32,307 nt of DNA from Clostridiales bacterium (GTDB taxonomy: Bacteria; Bacillota; Clostridia; Caldicoprobacterales; DTU083), in the NCBI GenBank assembly GCA_012837325.1, contig DURK01000004.1, positions 1 through 32,307 of the forward strand. The letters are read 5' to 3'. The stretch's first letter is position 1. Each line of letters starts with the position of its first letter. The position numbers were made by a program, and so were the translations under genes. Of this stretch, positions 8,056 to 17,465 are shown in pieces. The notes under the pieces were generated by a model, which searched no databases, was not told where the DNA came from, and saw nothing but the letters and a program-made list of their open reading frames with translations.

Positions 8056-9960
8056 TTACAGCCCTTTCACATTCAAGGCCCTTAAGGAGTTCAGCACGGC
8101 AATAACCGTTACCCCCACATCTGCGAAGATTGCTGCCCACAATGCCGTCATGCCAAATGCACTGAAGATCAAAACGGCTGCTTTAACAGCTATAGCCAGA
8201 TAAACGTTTTGCCAGGCAATTCCCATTGTTTTCTTTGCGATGCGGATGGCGGTTGTAATTTTAGAAGGCTCGTCGGTCATAATTACCACATCCGAAGCCT
8301 CGATGGCCGCATCCGAGCCCAGACCGCCCATGGCAATCCCAACATCAGCCCGGGCCAATACCGGCGCATCGTTGATGCCGTCCCCTACAAAGGATAATTT
8401 GGATTTGGAAGCCCCCAGCTCAAGCAATTCCTCCAGCTTCTCCACCTTGCCTTCAGGCAGAAGCTCCGCATAAAACGCATCCAAATCCAGCTCATTCGCT
8501 ATCCTGGAAGCGGTTGCCTCATTGTCACCGGTCAGCATAACAGTCTGCCGGATCCCGGTTTTTTTCAATTCCTGGATTGCCCTGCGGGAGTCTTCCTTTA
8601 CCTCATCAGATATAAGAATACAGCCTGCATATTCACCATTTACTGCGATATGAACAACCGTACCATACAAATCCTTTCGGTTGTAAGAAATCATGTTTTG
8701 TGCCATCAGCTTGTGATTTCCTGCCAGAATCTCCTTGCCGTCCACCATGGCACGAACACCATGTCCGGATATCTCTTCCATATCGGTAATCCTGGAGGCA
8801 TCGATTTCTTTCCCGTAAGCCTGCTTCAACGATAGAGAAATCGGATGATTGGAGAAATGCTCTGCCAGAGCAGCCAGCTCCAGCAGGTCCCGCTCCTTCT
8901 TTTCCCGAGATTCCTTTTCACCAAGACCATGAAGGCCATCCCGCTCAGACAGATCCTGATCATCCCGGCAATGAATCTCCTGAACCCGAAATACACCCCT
9001 GGTCAGTGTTCCGGTTTTGTCAAATACCATGCGGTCGGTTTGTGCCAGAGCCTCCAGATAGTTGCCGCCTTTCACCAGAATCCCTCTGGAGGAAGCGCCG
9101 CCAATACCGCCGAAAAAGCTCAGAGGAACGGACACCACAAGTGCACAGGGACAGGATACCACCAGAAAAGACAAGGAACGATAAATCCAATCTGAAAAAG
9201 CTGCCTCTCTGATCAGCAGGGGCGGCAGCACAGCAAGCAGGAATGCTACGATTACCACGATTGGCGTGTAGTAGCGGGCAAACCGTGTAATAAACCGCTC
9301 GGATTTGGATTTGTTGTTGGTGGCGTTTTCCACCAAATCCAATATTCTGCTCACAGCGGATTCTTCATATTCTCTGATCACCTTCACGGTTATCACACCG
9401 TTTAAGTTAATGCAGCCGCTTAAAATCTCGCTGCCTGCCTGAATCTCCCTGGGTACCGGTTCACCTGTCAGGGCTGAGGTATCAAGCAGGGAGCTTCCCT
9501 CCAATACCTCGCCGTCCAGGGGAACCCTTTCCCCTGCCTTGATGACAATGATGTCGCCGGGCCTTACCTCTTCCGGGTCCATTTGGATCAGTTCGTTGTT
9601 CTTTTTCACATTGGCATAATCCGGTCGGATGTCCATCAGATCGGCAATGGATTTTCTGGATTTGTCTACCGCATAATTCTGAAACAGTTCTCCAACCTGA
9701 TAAAAGAGCATAACGGCTACCCCTTCGGGGTACTCCCCTATTAAAAATGCGCCGATGGTAGCAAGGCTCATCAGAAAGTTTTCATCAAACACATTCCCTC
9801 GCACGATATTTCTGGCTGCCTTGAAAACAATATCCCAGCCTGTAATCATATAACTGCTTAAAAACAGGACAAGCCTGAGCCATTGCAGGTTTATTCCAAT
9901 CCATGCTGCGGCTGCCCAAATGACCGCAGCAAGAACGATTCTCCAGAGACGTTTTTTCAT
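8056..9960 (-). CDS. cadA: Heavy-metal-exporting P1B-type ATPase (Zn/Cd/Pb class)
   Basis: Pumps soft divalent metals out of the cell using ATP. Seen in order: two pairs of N-terminal membrane helices, the actuator TGEPVP motif (about 165), the metal-site SCPCAL in the sixth helix (about 269), the phosphorylation site DKTGTLT (about 314), the HP dipeptide (about 372), the GDGINDAP hinge, and two C-terminal helices containing a Lys (VKAAVLI) and an Asp (FADVGVTV) that mark the ZntA/CadA rather than the copper class. Members usually carry an N-terminal HMA domain; here that domain is a separate upstream gene. An ATG at 9960 follows AAGGGGAT; an in-frame TTG at 9978 overlaps the upstream stop but lacks a better site. 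An Asp/Glu/Arg/Lys-rich insert follows the phosphorylation motif. Metal specificity is inferred. Confidence 0.92.
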   Translation of the reverse strand: MKKRLWRIVLAAVIWAAAAWIGINLQWLRLVLFLSSYMITGWDIVFKAARNIVRGNVFDENFLMSLATIGAFLIGEYPEGVAVMLFYQVGELFQNYAVDKSRKSIADLMDIRPDYANVKKNNELIQMDPEEVRPGDIIVIKAGERVPLDGEVLEGSSLLDTSALTGEPVPREIQAGSEILSGCINLNGVITVKVIREYEESAVSRILDLVENATNNKSKSERFITRFARYYTPIVVIVAFLLAVLPPLLIREAAFSDWIYRSLSFLVVSCPCALVVSVPLSFFGGIGGASSRGILVKGGNYLEALAQTDRMVFDKTGTLTRGVFRVQEIHCRDDQDLSERDGLHGLGEKESREKKERDLLELAALAEHFSNHPISLSLKQAYGKEIDASRITDMEEISGHGVRAMVDGKEILAGNHKLMAQNMISYNRKDLYGTVVHIAVNGEYAGCILISDEVKEDSRRAIQELKKTGIRQTVMLTGDNEATASRIANELDLDAFYAELLPEGKVEKLEELLELGASKSKLSFVGDGINDAPVLARADVGIAMGGLGSDAAIEASDVVIMTDEPSKITTAIRIAKKTMGIAWQNVYLAIAVKAAVLIFSAFGMTALWAAIFADVGVTVIAVLNSLRALNVKGL

Positions 9961-12219: not shown

Positions 12220-13908
12220 TCATCTATTCAGAATTCTATCGATCATGGCTCTGTGTTTTTTGACAGTGTAATAGACCGCCTCTTTCCCATTCCAGGAGAC
12301 ACCTGCCCTGACACTTCTTCCATCTTGCTTGATCAACCCCAAGTCTCTTAATTTGCCGATATCCGCCAAAATATCTTCCATGGTTGTCTCCAGCCCATCC
12401 GTTATGGCTTGTATACTGACACCATGCTCCTGCTGTCTTAAAAACATCAGAACAGCCCGTTGTTCTTTTCTCAAAATCTTTCTCCATAAATAGTTGTCAA
12501 TGGCAGAATCCGATAATTGGTAGGTGTCCTTTATTCCTTGTTTTATGACATCCAGGTACTCTTGACTGGGCACCGTATCCTGCTCCCACCTTGGCTTATG
12601 GGTTAATGTATAAATGGGCAGCCCGTCTTCCCAGCCCAACAGAGCTTTTTTATTGTACCAGGTTCTTCCTTCATGACGCTGAATTTCCGCAAGCTGCTCT
12701 TTGGTAATAAGGTACATCTTCCCATAGCTGCTGCCCTTTTTGCTTAAATCAAGAAAGGCCACTCCTTGGTTTTGCCAGCTTCCGCTTTGCTTCGCAAAAT
12801 AGATGGGGTGATTCAGCTTCCTTGGTCTGATCTGCAGAGGTGGTGAGTTGTCTTCACACATCTCAATATACTTCATGAATCTTTCATAGTTGATATTAGA
12901 ACCATAGCAGGCATACCATACGTAATGATCAAAGATATCTGATATCCCAAGATACCAGGGCTGGAAGGAAAACGGAATCATTCTTTTCCCGTCCACAGGC
13001 TTCTTGTAGACGTAGGTATATGCCTCAATTGACTCACCAGACCTGGCGGACACCCTTACCTTTTCTCTTGCATACAGGTATCCTTCTGCTTCGTAGGCAT
13101 CGATCTCACCAATCTTCTTTTGCGGAATACAGTACAGTTCACCCTTCACCGTTTCTTCCTTGTCTTCCACGATACCGGGGTATCGTCCCAAATCGTATAG
13201 TGCATAGCCGGACAAAGCAGCGGTTCCACGAAATTCGGATTCCTCCAGATATCCCTGGGGACCATTCATTTTCATCAAGGTCCCATACACGAACAGCCAT
13301 ATCTTTTTTTCACCATTCATTTTGTGAATCAACCTTTCTATCCTCATTCCGAACTCCTCATTGAAATCAAATTTCGTTTTCCCTTCTGCCAGCATCAGCT
13401 CCAATTCTTTCTTTTTCTCTAATAGGAACTGTGTGAAGCCTTGATGCTTGGCAGGGTATAACCCGATAAACTGCATTGCGCCGGCCTCGACCAGTAAATT
13501 TAAGGCATCCATCATGAATCGGAAGGAGCTGAAGCCATGTCCAGCAATCCCTCCCTTCTCAATTATGTCCAAAGCTCGAATCAGGGCAGCTTCCAAGCCT
13601 TGTATGTGCACGCACTGATCTGGATTACCCATATAGAAGTTGATCAGCAAGCCGGTGAATAGTATGGTTGGATATTTCCAGAAATGTACTTTCGCATCAT
13701 ATGGCATATCTTCACTAAAGATGACCCTCCAGTATCCATCTGCATCCTGGTTCTTGATGAGCTCGTTAATCATACCCGTTACTTCCTCGATATCGGCAGT
13801 ACCTTTTACTTGACTTTGAAACAATTCCAACCAATCCTTCATCTGTTTCTCGAAGTCCTGAAATGCTTCCCTGCTTGGAGCTGCCTTGTTCATTAATAAT
13901 TCCTTCAT
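12220..13908 (-). CDS. Four-part protein: helical domain, two GGCT-like domains, C-terminal winged helix
   Basis: 562 residues, no single known name. Residues 1-195 are helical; DGYWRVIF near 57 and repeated helix pairs recall alpha/alpha-toroid proteins, but this is weak. Residues 203-300 form a gamma-glutamylamine cyclotransferase-like (AIG2/GGACT) domain: LFVYGTLMK, ALYDLGRYPGIV, VKGELYCIP and an acidic YEAEGY at the catalytic Glu position. Residues 332-440 form a second GGCT-like domain: YACYGSNIN, then GKMYLITKEQLAEIQRHEG with Glu413 as the probable catalytic residue. Residues 478-560 form a winged helix. B. subtilis YkqA also has two tandem domains of this superfamily, but without the flanking parts. 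The likely reaction is release of 5-oxoproline from gamma-glutamyl compounds; DNA binding is inferred. The ATG follows AGGAGGGGG. Confidence 0.7.
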   Translation of the reverse strand: MKELLMNKAAPSREAFQDFEKQMKDWLELFQSQVKGTADIEEVTGMINELIKNQDADGYWRVIFSEDMPYDAKVHFWKYPTILFTGLLINFYMGNPDQCVHIQGLEAALIRALDIIEKGGIAGHGFSSFRFMMDALNLLVEAGAMQFIGLYPAKHQGFTQFLLEKKKELELMLAEGKTKFDFNEEFGMRIERLIHKMNGEKKIWLFVYGTLMKMNGPQGYLEESEFRGTAALSGYALYDLGRYPGIVEDKEETVKGELYCIPQKKIGEIDAYEAEGYLYAREKVRVSARSGESIEAYTYVYKKPVDGKRMIPFSFQPWYLGISDIFDHYVWYACYGSNINYERFMKYIEMCEDNSPPLQIRPRKLNHPIYFAKQSGSWQNQGVAFLDLSKKGSSYGKMYLITKEQLAEIQRHEGRTWYNKKALLGWEDGLPIYTLTHKPRWEQDTVPSQEYLDVIKQGIKDTYQLSDSAIDNYLWRKILRKEQRAVLMFLRQQEHGVSIQAITDGLETTMEDILADIGKLRDLGLIKQDGRSVRAGVSWNGKEAVYYTVKKHRAMIDRILNR

Positions 13909-13935: not shown

Positions 13936-13965
13936 TACGAAGCGCTTGGGAATTTTGACTTCGTA
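13936..13965. promoter_or_regulatory. Inverted repeat at the start point of the GGCT-fusion gene
   Basis: TACGAAG (13936-13942) and CTTCGTA (13959-13965) are perfect 7-base arms 16 bases apart. They lie right at the predicted transcript start. The winged helix of the encoded protein or the WYL-like regulator next door could bind here. Confidence 0.4.
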
Positions 13966-13972
13966 TGCTGAA

Positions 13973-13981
13973 AGTATACCA
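13973..13981 (-). promoter_or_regulatory. Extended -10 promoter for the GGCT-fusion gene
   Basis: Read on the minus strand, TGG then TATACT (13978-13973) is an extended -10; no clear -35 is seen. Confidence 0.4.
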
Positions 13982-13994
13982 GAGGGAAAGCTCC

Positions 13995-14015
13995 AAAAAA
14001 GGCAGCTCAGCTGCC
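13995..14015 (-). terminator. Terminator after the WYL-like regulator gene
   Basis: Read on the minus strand: GGCAGC, a three-base loop, GCTGCC, then T6 (14000-13995). It lies 14 bases past the stop codon and separates this operon from the GGCT-fusion gene. Confidence 0.8.
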
Positions 14016-14028
14016 CACTTTTCCGAAA

Positions 14029-15039
14029 TTAACGATATTCGAATTCAATCTTATGTATTTCGTCCTGTGTTATCTCCCGTATGGGAGCTTTGCCAGGTGC
14101 GCTGTAAATCCGGACGATGTTCAAGCTCTCACCAGCCAGCCTCACATAACAGTTGTGAATAATCTCCCTGGCTGCATTGCTCAGATGTATCGTACACTTT
14201 TCTCCCGACTTAAAGAGGTACATTAAAGCGTCTTTTTTGCTTCCCTTGGCCATAACCTCCTCATCAATACTCTCATTGTATTTTTGAAACTCCTTCTCAG
14301 GCGGCAGATCCATATCATCTTCTCTTGCCCTTCTCTCAATCCTTTCTCTGGCATAATCGGAGAGCTGAGAATAGATTCGATTTGCCAGATGATCGTATCT
14401 TTCTGCTGCAATTGAATCCTCCCGGCCCTGAGCCAGAGACTTCAGCCCCGTAAACAAAAAATATACCTCTGTCAGATTAAGGGGCAGAAATATCGGATGA
14501 ACAGTAGATTGATAGGTCAATTCTCCTTTCTGCCTTTGGTAATTGCGTATCTTTACATGCTGGCCTAAAATTTTCGTGCCCATGATCAGCTTGTCCAAGT
14601 CACCCTCGATAACTTTTCTGGTCACAACATAATGATCCAACAGCTGACCCTTGGTCATGCCTTTCTGCAGTGTTTTCAGCAAATCAACCTGTCTTTCAAG
14701 TGCACTCATGTTTTCTTTTGTCAATGATTCATCCAGTATCAGTTCAATTTTATGATGATCCAGCAAATACCGTACAAAACTCAATATTCTCTGCCGTGCT
14801 TTTTCCTTTGAACGGGTCACCTTCGTGTACAGGCTGAATAGTGCATCTGCCAGCTTCTGCCTGTATTCCTCTCTTAACTGAAGAGACCTTACCGGTATAT
14901 CCATGGATACATCTGTTTCTGTCATTTGCGCAGGCAAGAGATTTAACAACAAGTTTGTTAGAGCGTTTCTTTCATTTTGGTTCGCTGTGCCGTTAATATA
15001 ATTCTGTATTACAGCTTGCAGTTCCATCCGATCAATCAT
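14029..15039 (-). CDS. Probable winged-helix/WYL-like transcriptional regulator
   Basis: 336 residues, helical at the N-terminus. Residues about 118-165 read as a DeoR-type winged helix (LKTLQKGMTKGQLLDHY, then a recognition-helix-like VVTRKVIEGDLDKL). This is followed by STVHPIFLPLNLTEVYFLF, which resembles the stretch after the helix in WYL-domain regulators. The C-terminal 50 residues (CTIHLSNAAREIIHNC to the end) are beta-rich and could be a ligand-binding end domain. No WYL triad is obvious, so the family call is tentative. It is the last gene of an apparent operon with the glycosylase-family, DUF488 and AcpH-like genes. The start could also be the ATG at 15027, which has an AAGGATG site at better spacing; the one at 15039 overlaps that site. 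Confidence 0.6.
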   Translation of the reverse strand: MIDRMELQAVIQNYINGTANQNERNALTNLLLNLLPAQMTETDVSMDIPVRSLQLREEYRQKLADALFSLYTKVTRSKEKARQRILSFVRYLLDHHKIELILDESLTKENMSALERQVDLLKTLQKGMTKGQLLDHYVVTRKVIEGDLDKLIMGTKILGQHVKIRNYQRQKGELTYQSTVHPIFLPLNLTEVYFLFTGLKSLAQGREDSIAAERYDHLANRIYSQLSDYARERIERRAREDDMDLPPEKEFQKYNESIDEEVMAKGSKKDALMYLFKSGEKCTIHLSNAAREIIHNCYVRLAGESLNIVRIYSAPGKAPIREITQDEIHKIEFEYR

Positions 15040-15074: not shown

Positions 15075-15659
15075 TTATATTTGAAATGTCCTTGCATAGT
15101 TTACAATCTGCGGAAAAAAGACTTTGAAATCCTGTTCCAGACTCCCGTAATTGTTTCTTAATTCATCAATCGGTTTGTTCATAGGGCGTCTTGAATTTGC
15201 AAACCGCCTGGCGATATTGTTCACTGCCAGCTCCATGCCGGATAGCTTCCGATATCCCGTAAGCCAGTTTTCATTGATGAGGTAAGGCATCAACCCTTGC
15301 AGTTTGTCCGGCAGAATTGCAGTGTTTCTCCTTAAGATATCATAAAAGTGCTCTGCATATTTCTCCAATGATACAGGTGAATAATCCTCCCAGTTCTTTG
15401 CCAGGTAATGATCATAGAACATATCAATCAACACACCTGCATAACGCCTGTTTGAGCTGGAAACCCTTCTCCTGCTGGTTAAGAAAACAGGATGGGAATC
15501 GGTGAAGCTGTCCAGCCTGCGGTGCATGTGAACTCCTTCCACTATGGCTTTCTCATAATTCTTTTCTGCTGCTTTTTTGATAAAATCACCCAGAAAATTT
15601 CCGAGCAGCACTTTTTCATCCAGATGATCTGCAAGATAGATATGAGCTAAGTAATTCAT
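15075..15659 (-). CDS. acpH: Acyl-carrier-protein phosphodiesterase (AcpH) family protein
   Basis: AcpH removes the 4'-phosphopantetheine arm from holo-ACP, using a metal-dependent HD-like fold. The protein opens with MNYLAHIYLA, the usual AcpH start, followed by GNFLGDF, VHMHRRLDSFTDSHPV and DMFYDHYLAKNW, whose His and Asp residues form the metal site in this family. At 194 residues the length fits. The ATG at 15659 follows AAAGGATCAGG; an in-frame start seven codons upstream would overlap the end of the DUF488 gene and has no family support. Ten bases separate it from DUF488, so the two are probably co-transcribed. Many Firmicute homologues lack experimental proof of ACP activity. Confidence 0.82.
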   Translation of the reverse strand: MNYLAHIYLADHLDEKVLLGNFLGDFIKKAAEKNYEKAIVEGVHMHRRLDSFTDSHPVFLTSRRRVSSSNRRYAGVLIDMFYDHYLAKNWEDYSPVSLEKYAEHFYDILRRNTAILPDKLQGLMPYLINENWLTGYRKLSGMELAVNNIARRFANSRRPMNKPIDELRNNYGSLEQDFKVFFPQIVNYARTFQI

Positions 15660-15669
15660 CCTGATCCTT

Positions 15670-16041
15670 TCAATGCTCAATTGCCTCTGACAGCCACCTT
15701 TTCAGAACCAATGCATGATTTATTTTTGGATCCCTGGCTGCGTACAGCAATGTTACATTACCTGTTTTTAGTTTTCTGGAAACCTCCCTGGCAAACTCCT
15801 CAGCCTTAGGATTGCGATCCAATTCAAGGAAATATGATTGGGCAAAGGATTCCATCTGCTCTGCCTGATGTCCGAACTCCTTCCGTATGGAAGTACTGGG
15901 AGCAATATCTTTTGCCCATTCATTGAGAGCGGCTCTTTCCTTGCTGATTCCTCTGGGCCATAGCCTGTCCACCAATATTCTATGACCGTCCTCTTCTGCG
16001 GGCATATCATAAATTCGCTTGATCTTAATTTTGTATTTCAT
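15670..16041 (-). CDS. DUF488 family protein (YeaO-like)
   Basis: A 123-residue cytoplasmic protein of unknown function. The family signature is clear: IKRIYDMPAEEDGHRILVDR, then LWPRGISKE, WAKDIAPS and, near the end, TLLYAARDPKINHALVL. The conserved Arg-Leu-Trp-Pro-Arg-Gly stretch suggests a phosphate or nucleic-acid contact, but no activity is established. It sits 14 bases after the uracil-DNA glycosylase-family gene and 10 bases before the AcpH-like gene, on the same strand. AGGGGA lies 10 bases before the ATG. Confidence 0.85.
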   Translation of the reverse strand: MKYKIKIKRIYDMPAEEDGHRILVDRLWPRGISKERAALNEWAKDIAPSTSIRKEFGHQAEQMESFAQSYFLELDRNPKAEEFAREVSRKLKTGNVTLLYAARDPKINHALVLKRWLSEAIEH

Positions 16042-16055
16042 TTAACTTCTTCCCC

Positions 16056-16712
16056 TTATGATACTTGTCCGACTTTCAGCTTATCCTTCAACGCAATCAT
16101 CCCGCGAACAAAGTCACTCTTACCTCCTTGAGCCGGATGTCGAACTTTTTCGTGCGGAATGCCAAGCTTGTTGAGGCTCTCTGCTGCCTTGTTGCCCATG
16201 GCAACCACCTTACTTATATGGAATGACTCAAGTATTTGGAGGAGAGGCTTTTCACCTAAAAGTAATTCCTTCTTCAACGGCGTTCGGTTGCTCAATGCAT
16301 TGTCCTTCTTATGTGGGTGAAAGGGAAAAGCATTCCAGGCCAGAACCATGATGTTGTGTTGAGTCAAGACCTCCCATATGATCGTAGCTGTAGCTTCCTT
16401 CATTAACTTCTCATTTTCAGCAGCCAGTCTGTAACCGTTTTGCTTACCAAACAGATTAAGCCCTTTCATATTGTTCATAAGCAAATGCTCACTGGTAAAA
16501 GGAACGCCGGTCAGGCGGCAGCCTCTGTAGCCGGGTGCCTCGCCCACCAATAGGATCTTAGGATTCACCTTTTGCATCTGCTGCAGATAGATATAGAGGT
16601 TGTTTCTTCTTATTGCATTTTCCGCGTGTTCATATGAATATTGGTTGTACACATTTGGTGTAACTTCCATTTCTGCCAACTCTTCTACAAATGCTTTTAG
16701 ACTCTTCACCAT
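16056..16712 (-). CDS. Uracil-DNA glycosylase superfamily protein
   Basis: Enzymes of this superfamily remove uracil or related bases from DNA. Residues 54-75 contain the active-site loop LLVGEAPGYRGCRLTGVPF, and WNAFPFHPH (about 124-132) is a conserved core strand. RHPAQGGKSDF near residue 196 corresponds to the second motif with its conserved His-Pro. The usual catalytic Asp or Asn of motif I is replaced by an Glu-Ala-Pro-Gly arrangement as in several family 4/5-like groups, and no set of four cysteines for an iron-sulfur cluster is seen. Substrate is therefore uncertain. It is the first gene of an apparent four-gene operon. The ATG follows AGGGATGG at short spacing. Confidence 0.75.
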   Translation of the reverse strand: MVKSLKAFVEELAEMEVTPNVYNQYSYEHAENAIRRNNLYIYLQQMQKVNPKILLVGEAPGYRGCRLTGVPFTSEHLLMNNMKGLNLFGKQNGYRLAAENEKLMKEATATIIWEVLTQHNIMVLAWNAFPFHPHKKDNALSNRTPLKKELLLGEKPLLQILESFHISKVVAMGNKAAESLNKLGIPHEKVRHPAQGGKSDFVRGMIALKDKLKVGQVS

Positions 16713-16770
16713 TCACCATCCCTAACCCTTGTGTGGAATCGACCACCGTGCAGCCTGTATAGTTACAGAT

Positions 16771-16779
16771 ATTGTATCA
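16771..16779 (-). promoter_or_regulatory. Possible extended -10 promoter for the glycosylase operon
   Basis: Read on the minus strand, TGA then TACAAT (16776-16771); no good -35 is seen. It would give a leader of about 50 bases. Confidence 0.3.
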
Positions 16780-16928
16780 GGAAAGCTGCAATTATCCTAT
16801 CTTTATCTTTTCGTTATATCCCATGCTGCTGATATGTTGCTCAATGGTTGATATATGGATACCCGTATGCAGGATTTTGCCACTTGATTAATCTTATTCT
16901 ATTTGTAACAACCGACCGGAATCGTCAG

Positions 16929-16972
16929 AAAAAAAGATTGGTAACCATTACTCAAGAAGTAAGGCACCAACC
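16929..16972 (-). terminator. Terminator of the MATE-yjbQ operon
   Basis: Read on the minus strand, GGTTGGT (16972-16966) pairs with ACCAATC (16942-16936, one wobble), and inside it TTACT pairs with AGTAA. The stem is followed by T7 (16935-16929). It begins about 48 bases past the yjbQ stop codon. Confidence 0.65.
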
Positions 16973-17019
16973 TTTATATTACTTGAAAAGCTCCCTGCTT
17001 TTTGTCCAAGAATTGTTTT

Positions 17020-17436
17020 TCATTCACCTATAATTTTAACCAAAACTCTTTTCGATCTTTTCCCGTCGAATTCGCCATAAAAGATTTGCTCCCACGGGCC
17101 GAAGTCCAGCCTCCCATTCGTAATCGCTACCACCACTTCCCTTCCCATGATGGTTCGCTTCAGGTGAGCGTCCGCATTGTCTTCGTATCCGTTATGTGCA
17201 TACTGACTGTAAGGCTTCTCCGGTGCCAATTTTTCCAGGAAAACCTCAAAATCACTATGGAGACCCGACTCGTCGTCATTGATAAAGACACTGGCCGTTA
17301 TATGCATGGCATTGCATAACAGCAACCCTTCCTTGATTCCACTCTCCCTCAAGCATTCTTCTACCTGCGGAGTAATGTTAAGAAAGGCTCTCCTCGTTCT
17401 GGTGGTAAAATACAGCTCTTTTCTGTAGGATTTCAT
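17020..17436 (-). CDS. yjbQ: YjbQ/UPF0047 family protein
   Basis: A 138-residue, widely conserved cytoplasmic protein; E. coli YjbQ has weak thiamine-phosphate synthase activity, but the true role is unclear. Family marks: [20 protein letters not shown], then [22 protein letters not shown] and [12 protein letters not shown], with the conserved His, Asn-Asp and Asn-Gly residues. The ATG at 17436 follows AAGGAGATGATC, a near-perfect ribosome site, so the nine extra codons upstream are rejected. It lies 29 bases after the MATE gene, presumably as the second gene of that unit, and is followed by a terminator. Confidence 0.9.
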
Positions 17437-17465
17437 AGAGATCATCTCCTTTGTAAAAATCATTT

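Follow-up and report, generated by a model that had tools for sequence, protein, structure and literature searches.

A rare four-part cyclotransferase fusion gene and its conserved upstream WYL-like regulator gene in a Clostridiales genome

The window analysed here, a stretch of 32,307 nucleotides from a Clostridiales bacterium (contig DURK01000004.1), contains a gene whose product has the domain order helical domain, GGCT1, GGCT2 and winged helix, which is a real but rare family. The gene is preceded by one for a diverged WYL-like regulator, and this gene pair is conserved among relatives. We give a probability of about 0.5 to the reading that the two genes form a module in which the regulator, acting at a palindrome between them, switches the fusion, itself an enzyme acting on a gamma-glutamyl compound. 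The regulatory half of this reading draws on comparative evidence and the enzymatic half on conserved catalytic residues. The first-pass annotation of this DNA had depended on the architecture not being characterised already; no description was found in the literature searched, where both the architecture and the fusion-regulator pair appear so far undescribed. What is new is a variant combining known kinds, namely GGCT enzymes and WYL-type switches.

Domain architecture of the fusion protein and its relatives

The fusion gene and the parts of its product are as follows.

12220-13908, minus strand: fusion gene with a 562-residue product (ATG start, good ribosome-binding site, full-length homologues)
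13318-13908, minus strand: helical N-terminal domain, residues 1-197 (helical in AlphaFold2; matches no known family)
12931-13305, minus strand: GGCT1, a GGACT/AIG2-type cyclotransferase domain, residues 202-326 (PF06094, 1vkb, VYGTL loop, Glu273)
12475-12930, minus strand: GGCT2, a human-GGCT-type domain, residues 327-478 (2rbh/3cry, YGSN loop, Glu413)
12220-12474, minus strand: MarR/ArsR-like winged helix, residues 479-562 (AlphaFold2, VIA-align, conservation)

The four-part architecture had been proposed from the sequence by the first-pass annotation, and it was borne out by AlphaFold2 (mean pLDDT of 91, using an alignment of 37 homologues), Pfam and structure comparison. Residues 1-197 are helical almost throughout, as had been suggested for the N-terminus, residues 202-326 and 327-478 form two cyclotransferase folds, and the C-terminus consists of helices with a beta wing. 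Pfam and PDB sequence searches with the helical domain gave nothing above chance, and its P.DARV..(Y)..PTY and GHG motifs are conserved in the alignment rows. The likening of the tandem cyclotransferase order to that of YkqA also held, as residues 201-480 align with 2qik at Z 15.3; the rmsd of 12.5 over this region indicates that the order is as in YkqA and the relative placement of the domains is not.

GGCT1 is matched by PF06094 (GGACT) at residues 205-311 (E 2e-27, 96.6 bits against a cut-off of 22.8), and residues 200-326 compare with GGACT 1vkb at Z 15.7 and rmsd 2.2 over 124 aligned residues. Pfam placed no domain on residues 1-200 or 327-475 of the fusion; GGCT2 has a profile match to 2i5t (E 8e-6), and residues 327-478 compare with human GGCT (2rbh/3cry) at Z 15.6 and rmsd 2.7 over 140 aligned residues. 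The loops are YGTL in GGCT1 (Y208-L211) and YGSN in GGCT2 (Y335-N338), with YG nearly invariant in both across the alignment. E273 is aligned with the catalytic glutamate of GGACT in the 1vkb alignment, and E413 with the residue that is mutated, to Gln and Ala, in 3cry and 2rbh; we take this residue to be the catalytic E98. Glutamate occupies position 273 in 31 of 32 readable alignment rows and position 413 in all 32. Judged by these residues, both cyclotransferase sites look competent, and catalysis by the fusion is to be read as a suggestion, since a conserved catalytic glutamate alone is no proof of turnover.

The expectation that the last ~85 residues would fold as a winged helix was upheld by the fold check, in which residues ~470-562 matched MarR/ArsR winged helices at Z 11-12.6 (for 3vod, Z 12.2 and rmsd 2.1 over 78 aligned residues); in Pfam, HTH_27 on residues 481-535 was sub-threshold (17.3 bits against a cut-off of 22.2). 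The wing motif QD.RS.R.G is conserved, with D-x-R in 17 of 17 rows, and the domain is near neutral, not clearly basic. Within the family the winged helix is dispensable: it is missing in L039, L047, L094, L097 and L100-L102.

A relative placed in the same GTDB family shows 66% identity along the full length, and since more distant homologues of the same order also exist, the fusion is not an ORF artefact. Full domain order was found in the named genomes of Desulfosporosinus acididurans and of Thermoclostridium, Tissierellia, Firmicutes and Lachnospiraceae MAGs, using a closer alignment of homologues as the query, a single-protein scan having found nothing. Among 398 genomes of the phylum, each searched in full, the helical domain was found in eight and a confident homologue of the regulator in about half a dozen (nine at E < 1e-6, three of these weak); the module is accordingly regarded as rare and patchy.

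The fusion has a modular make-up: in relatives, either the helical domain or the winged helix may be absent, split off or joined by extra domains. Some lack the helical domain (L108/L109/L095) or GGCT1 (L091, L105, L111), others consist of GGCT2 and the winged helix alone (L040, L088, L107), and GGCT1-GGCT2 without the other parts also occurs. The helical domain is encoded apart from the remaining domains in L036 and is joined to a different YGSN-type cyclotransferase in L043-L045, and further fused domains include HNH (L089), nitroreductase (L092, L118), ASCH (L103) and TPR (L121).

Some of these relatives have features of their own. The 704-residue product of L089 (4968-7082) has five parts: the helical domain, two cyclotransferase domains, the winged helix and a C-terminal HNH nuclease domain. 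In L107 (4998-6200), GGCT2 and the winged helix are followed by a C-terminus of ~166 residues with an RCNLFHG motif, which is HEPN-like by eye and has no Pfam match. The extra domain precedes the GGCT1-GGCT2 pair in the nitroreductase fusions of Epulopiscium (L092, 3433-5076; L118, 4317-5945) and in the ASCH fusion (L103, 4515-5840). One genome has two copies of the module ~20 kb apart, one split (L036, 8404-10157) and one fused (L037, 7263-9017); the former comprises two overlapping ORFs and may be a true split or a frameshift. Standalone GGCT2 (L113-L162) is common in Bacillaceae and is also found in Bacteroidota, and two actinobacterial plasmid copies (H1, H2) are annotated as 'histone deacetylase', a label that looks wrong as the fold is that of GGCT. 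A phage or plasmid origin of the module was considered and set aside, as searches of phages, plasmids and viral contigs matched the GGCT1 or GGCT2 part only, and the regulator had no plasmid match.

The upstream regulator and the gap between the two genes

The regulator gene and the elements of the gap are listed below.

14029-15039, minus strand: partner gene, encoding a diverged WYL-like regulator of 336 residues (predicted fold, adjacency to fusion homologues)
14001-14015, no strand: operator-like palindrome GGCAGCT-G-AGCTGCC (same spot in relatives; terminator-like scan match, then T6)
13973-13981, minus strand: putative extended -10-like element TGGTATACT for the fusion gene (from aligned gaps)
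13936-13965, no strand: inverted repeat TACGAAG-16-CTTCGTA with 7-bp arms (present; arms not kept in relative)

The partner lies directly upstream of the fusion gene on the same strand, and at nearly all loci with adequate flanks a homologue, with identities down to 18-30%, stands before the fusion or one of its shorter relatives. This same-strand arrangement is seen in the full-length relatives L048/L083, L084, L085, L086, L037 and L038/L087, as well as in L036 (split fusion), L039, L047, L050, L089, L091, L094, L102 and L105, and the partner is also directly upstream in the loci without the helical domain (L108/L109/L095). The AlphaFold model of the partner (pLDDT 85) comprises a helical region (residues 1-105), a winged HTH (112-179) and an Sm-like barrel (258-336). 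Its best Foldseek match is PafBC, a WYL protein (E 0.005), and DriD, BrxR and CapW are matched as well, with Z under 8; the barrel scores equally with Hfq, and Pfam WYL was not matched by the partner in the window (E limit 1) or by four relatives (E limit 0.1). The partner is therefore called WYL-like and not WYL.

The palindrome has the consensus TGAAGCT-N-AGCTTCA, and in distant relatives GAAGCT-N-AGCTTC or a close variant is found at the same position in the gap, 52-98 bp before the next start codon, at six loci. In the window, TGGTATACT is 20 bp beyond the palindrome and is identical in the 66% relative; its -10-like assignment is a tentative one from the alignment, since a consensus scan did not find it. 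There are 12 occurrences of GAAGCNNNGCTTC in 1.04 Mb of fetched loci compared with about 1 expected by chance, a count made post hoc, after the motif had been noticed, and 11 of these fall in a gap that adjoins a partner gene (10 with the near-identical L085 and L086 counted once). Four partner genes are back to back with a gene for a calcineurin-like phosphatase (metallophosphatase), in L060 (5961-7792), L062 (2905-4446), L063 (4805-5967) and L039 (10826-12579), and the shared promoters contain the consensus palindrome in L060 and L039 (second copy) and a variant in L062 and L063. Because the L060, L062 and L063 stretches contain no GGCT protein, binding by the partner is the simplest explanation of the palindrome, which on this comparison probably belongs to the upstream regulator and not to the winged helix of the fusion. 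The palindrome is absent in L087, the first copy of L039, L091, L105, L061 and L065.

In the window and in some relatives the palindrome is terminator- or hairpin-like. A role as a terminator only was rejected, as a T-run follows some copies only and four of the sites are in divergent promoters, an implausible place for a terminator. A pattern scan of the 398 genomes returned 44 sites in 39 genomes, and most of the 30 inspected were inside ORFs; the few extragenic sites include the known L039 promoter (L194) and a new one (L185, 197-211), ~60 bp upstream of the start of a homologous phosphatase in a genome that had no part in defining the motif. L185 also has a second, imperfect copy near the start of its contig.

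A wider regulon in the bacterium's own genome was also rejected, with GNAGCTNAGCTNC occurring at five places: three in coding sequence, one in the gap that precedes another gene (L167), where it is hairpin-like, and the palindrome at 14001-14015. An additional PWM match at position 2208 of the window falls within the first codons of the ORF at 614-2224. In L039, a perfect 22-bp palindrome, AGTGCGAAAAATTTTTCGCACT, is located at 8607-8628 directly after another subfamily of regulator and is perhaps a second operator type. For spacer repeats other than the conserved palindrome no significance is claimed: the very small p of a combined test is invalid, since a flooring artefact gave small p values to repeat-free gaps too.

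A different site, the inverted repeat at 13936-13965, had been put forward as the sequence that the winged helix could bind. The repeat does exist, and dinucleotide shuffling of the 120-bp gap yields an arm of at least 7 in 25% of cases (10% without the first 35 bases); in the aligned gaps its arms are not conserved in the 66%-identical relative. As an operator it was rejected, being near shuffle expectation and missing in that relative, and the repeat is probably a product of chance.

Gene neighbourhood, proposed mechanism and alternatives

Upstream of the pair in the window, on the same strand (15075-17463), are genes for an ACP phosphodiesterase, a DUF488 protein (inactive N3 subclade), a UDG-superfamily protein and UPF0047, possibly parts of a longer operon that includes the module, and a lactate racemase is encoded downstream. 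No ADP-ribosylglycohydrolase was found among the scanned neighbours in the window, and genes for a metallophosphatase, macro domain or Thoeris TIR are also absent from it. Among relatives, an ADP-ribosylglycohydrolase is encoded within a few kb at L085, L086, L097, L098, L131 and L161, another is ~9 kb away at L041, and none is in the flanks fetched for the ~45 loci that have GGCT2 by itself (a rough Fisher p of 0.004, with approximate counts and a possible lineage bias, as ADP-ribosylglycohydrolases are common in Lachnospiraceae). In L062, a macro-domain gene and an apparent vWA gene are found by the partner/phosphatase pair. Other neighbours match Thoeris TIR genes (L108), Wadjet JetA and JetB-like genes, a type II methyltransferase and an AbiEi-like gene; as PADLOC matches are also found among neighbours of control loci, an enrichment of defence genes is not shown.

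In the two-gene module, the WYL-like regulator, probably responsive to a small ligand, would bind the palindrome (14001-14015), which is just upstream of the fusion's own promoter, and would thereby turn the fusion on or off. The fusion would act inside the cell as an enzyme, its two cyclotransferase-fold sites freeing 5-oxoproline from a gamma-glutamyl compound or adduct; the helical domain may give oligomerisation or substrate choice, and the winged helix may be an accessory nucleic-acid- or protein-binding part. Binding of inverted repeats by a repressor is known for BrxR (PMC9122601). Against this reading are the weak fold matches behind the WYL call (Foldseek E 0.005, Z under 8), and the palindrome itself, which is terminator-like in places, absent at some loci and mostly in coding sequence in the phylum scan.

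The first-pass annotation had instead placed the coupling to transcription in the fusion, as a one-component sensor: the cyclotransferase domains would bind or cleave a gamma-glutamyl ligand, and the winged helix would act on the fusion's own promoter. Of that proposal, the four parts and the fold of the winged helix stand, and the operator does not. In favour of the sensor reading are the MarR-like fold (Z about 12), the invariant D-x-R of the wing, and the existence of trigger enzymes of this type. The conserved palindrome, however, tracks the partner, even in partner/phosphatase promoters in stretches without a GGCT protein; the proposed repeat is not conserved, and the winged helix is not clearly basic and is absent from several relatives. 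The sensor reading is considered unlikely, and the partner is a better candidate than the winged helix for coupling to transcription. That the cyclotransferase folds serve as non-catalytic ligand- or protein-binding modules is very improbable; non-catalytic members of this fold are plausible, as E. coli YtfP has Arg at the position of the GGACT catalytic Glu in the alignment, yet in the fusion family both glutamates and both loops are nearly invariant.

The neighbourhood of the relatives offers another possibility, also doubtful, that the two genes belong to a conflict or ADP-ribose-related system in which the cyclotransferase removes or processes a modification. Systems of ADP-ribosylglycohydrolases with WYL or Nudix regulators, phosphatases, vWA and macro domains, acting against viral ADP-ribosylation, have been predicted (PMC9503650), and this is consistent with the ADP-ribosylglycohydrolases near six relatives and near none of the GGCT2-alone loci, the metallophosphatase adjoining the partner with a macro domain in L062, the defence-type neighbours, and the HNH domain fused in L089. 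However, none of those genes is in the window, PADLOC matches at control loci and a possible lineage bias weaken the association, and GGCT is not named in PMC9503650. A further, improbable reading is an undescribed inducible conflict module, in which infection or ADP-ribosylation would reach the WYL-like regulator as a nucleotide-type signal, and the regulator would then release a double cyclotransferase able to remove a gamma-glutamyl-type mark from a macromolecule, with the winged helix (together with HNH or other fusions in relatives) bringing the cyclotransferase to nucleic acid.

Relation to known systems and significance

The fusion shares its tandem GGACT-like and then GGCT-like domains with YkqA of Bacillus subtilis (2qik), whereas YkqA (269-285 residues in the entry) has neither the helical N-terminus nor the winged helix, and its relative domain placement differs. 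Mammalian GGACT (A2LD1) and human GGCT (C7orf24) have the same folds, YGTL/YGSN loops and catalytic Glu as the fusion, but are single-domain eukaryotic enzymes with about 20% identity to its domains. With MarR/ArsR regulators the fusion has in common the C-terminal fold and the D-x-R of the wing; its winged helix, in contrast, is below Pfam cut-offs, enzyme-fused, near neutral and often missing in relatives. In its predicted domain order, a winged HTH followed by an Sm-like barrel, the partner resembles the WYL regulators PafBC, DriD, BrxR and CapW, and it has a palindromic site beside a gene that it probably controls; it differs in having no Pfam WYL match, an extra helical N-terminus and weak fold scores. 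The WYL-type regulator, calcineurin-like phosphatase, macro domain and ADP-ribosylglycohydrolase of the systems in PMC9503650 are also found near relatives of the fusion, but GGCT proteins are unnamed there and the enzymes of those systems are absent from the window.

Most bacterial GGCT-fold proteins lack a known role, and this fusion comes with a dedicated regulator gene, an operator-like site and swappable accessory domains. What was an orphan enzyme fold thereby becomes a circuit open to testing, in which the ligand of the regulator and the substrate of the enzyme should be related. If the link to ADP-ribose or phage were true, it would add new chemistry to bacterial conflict systems.
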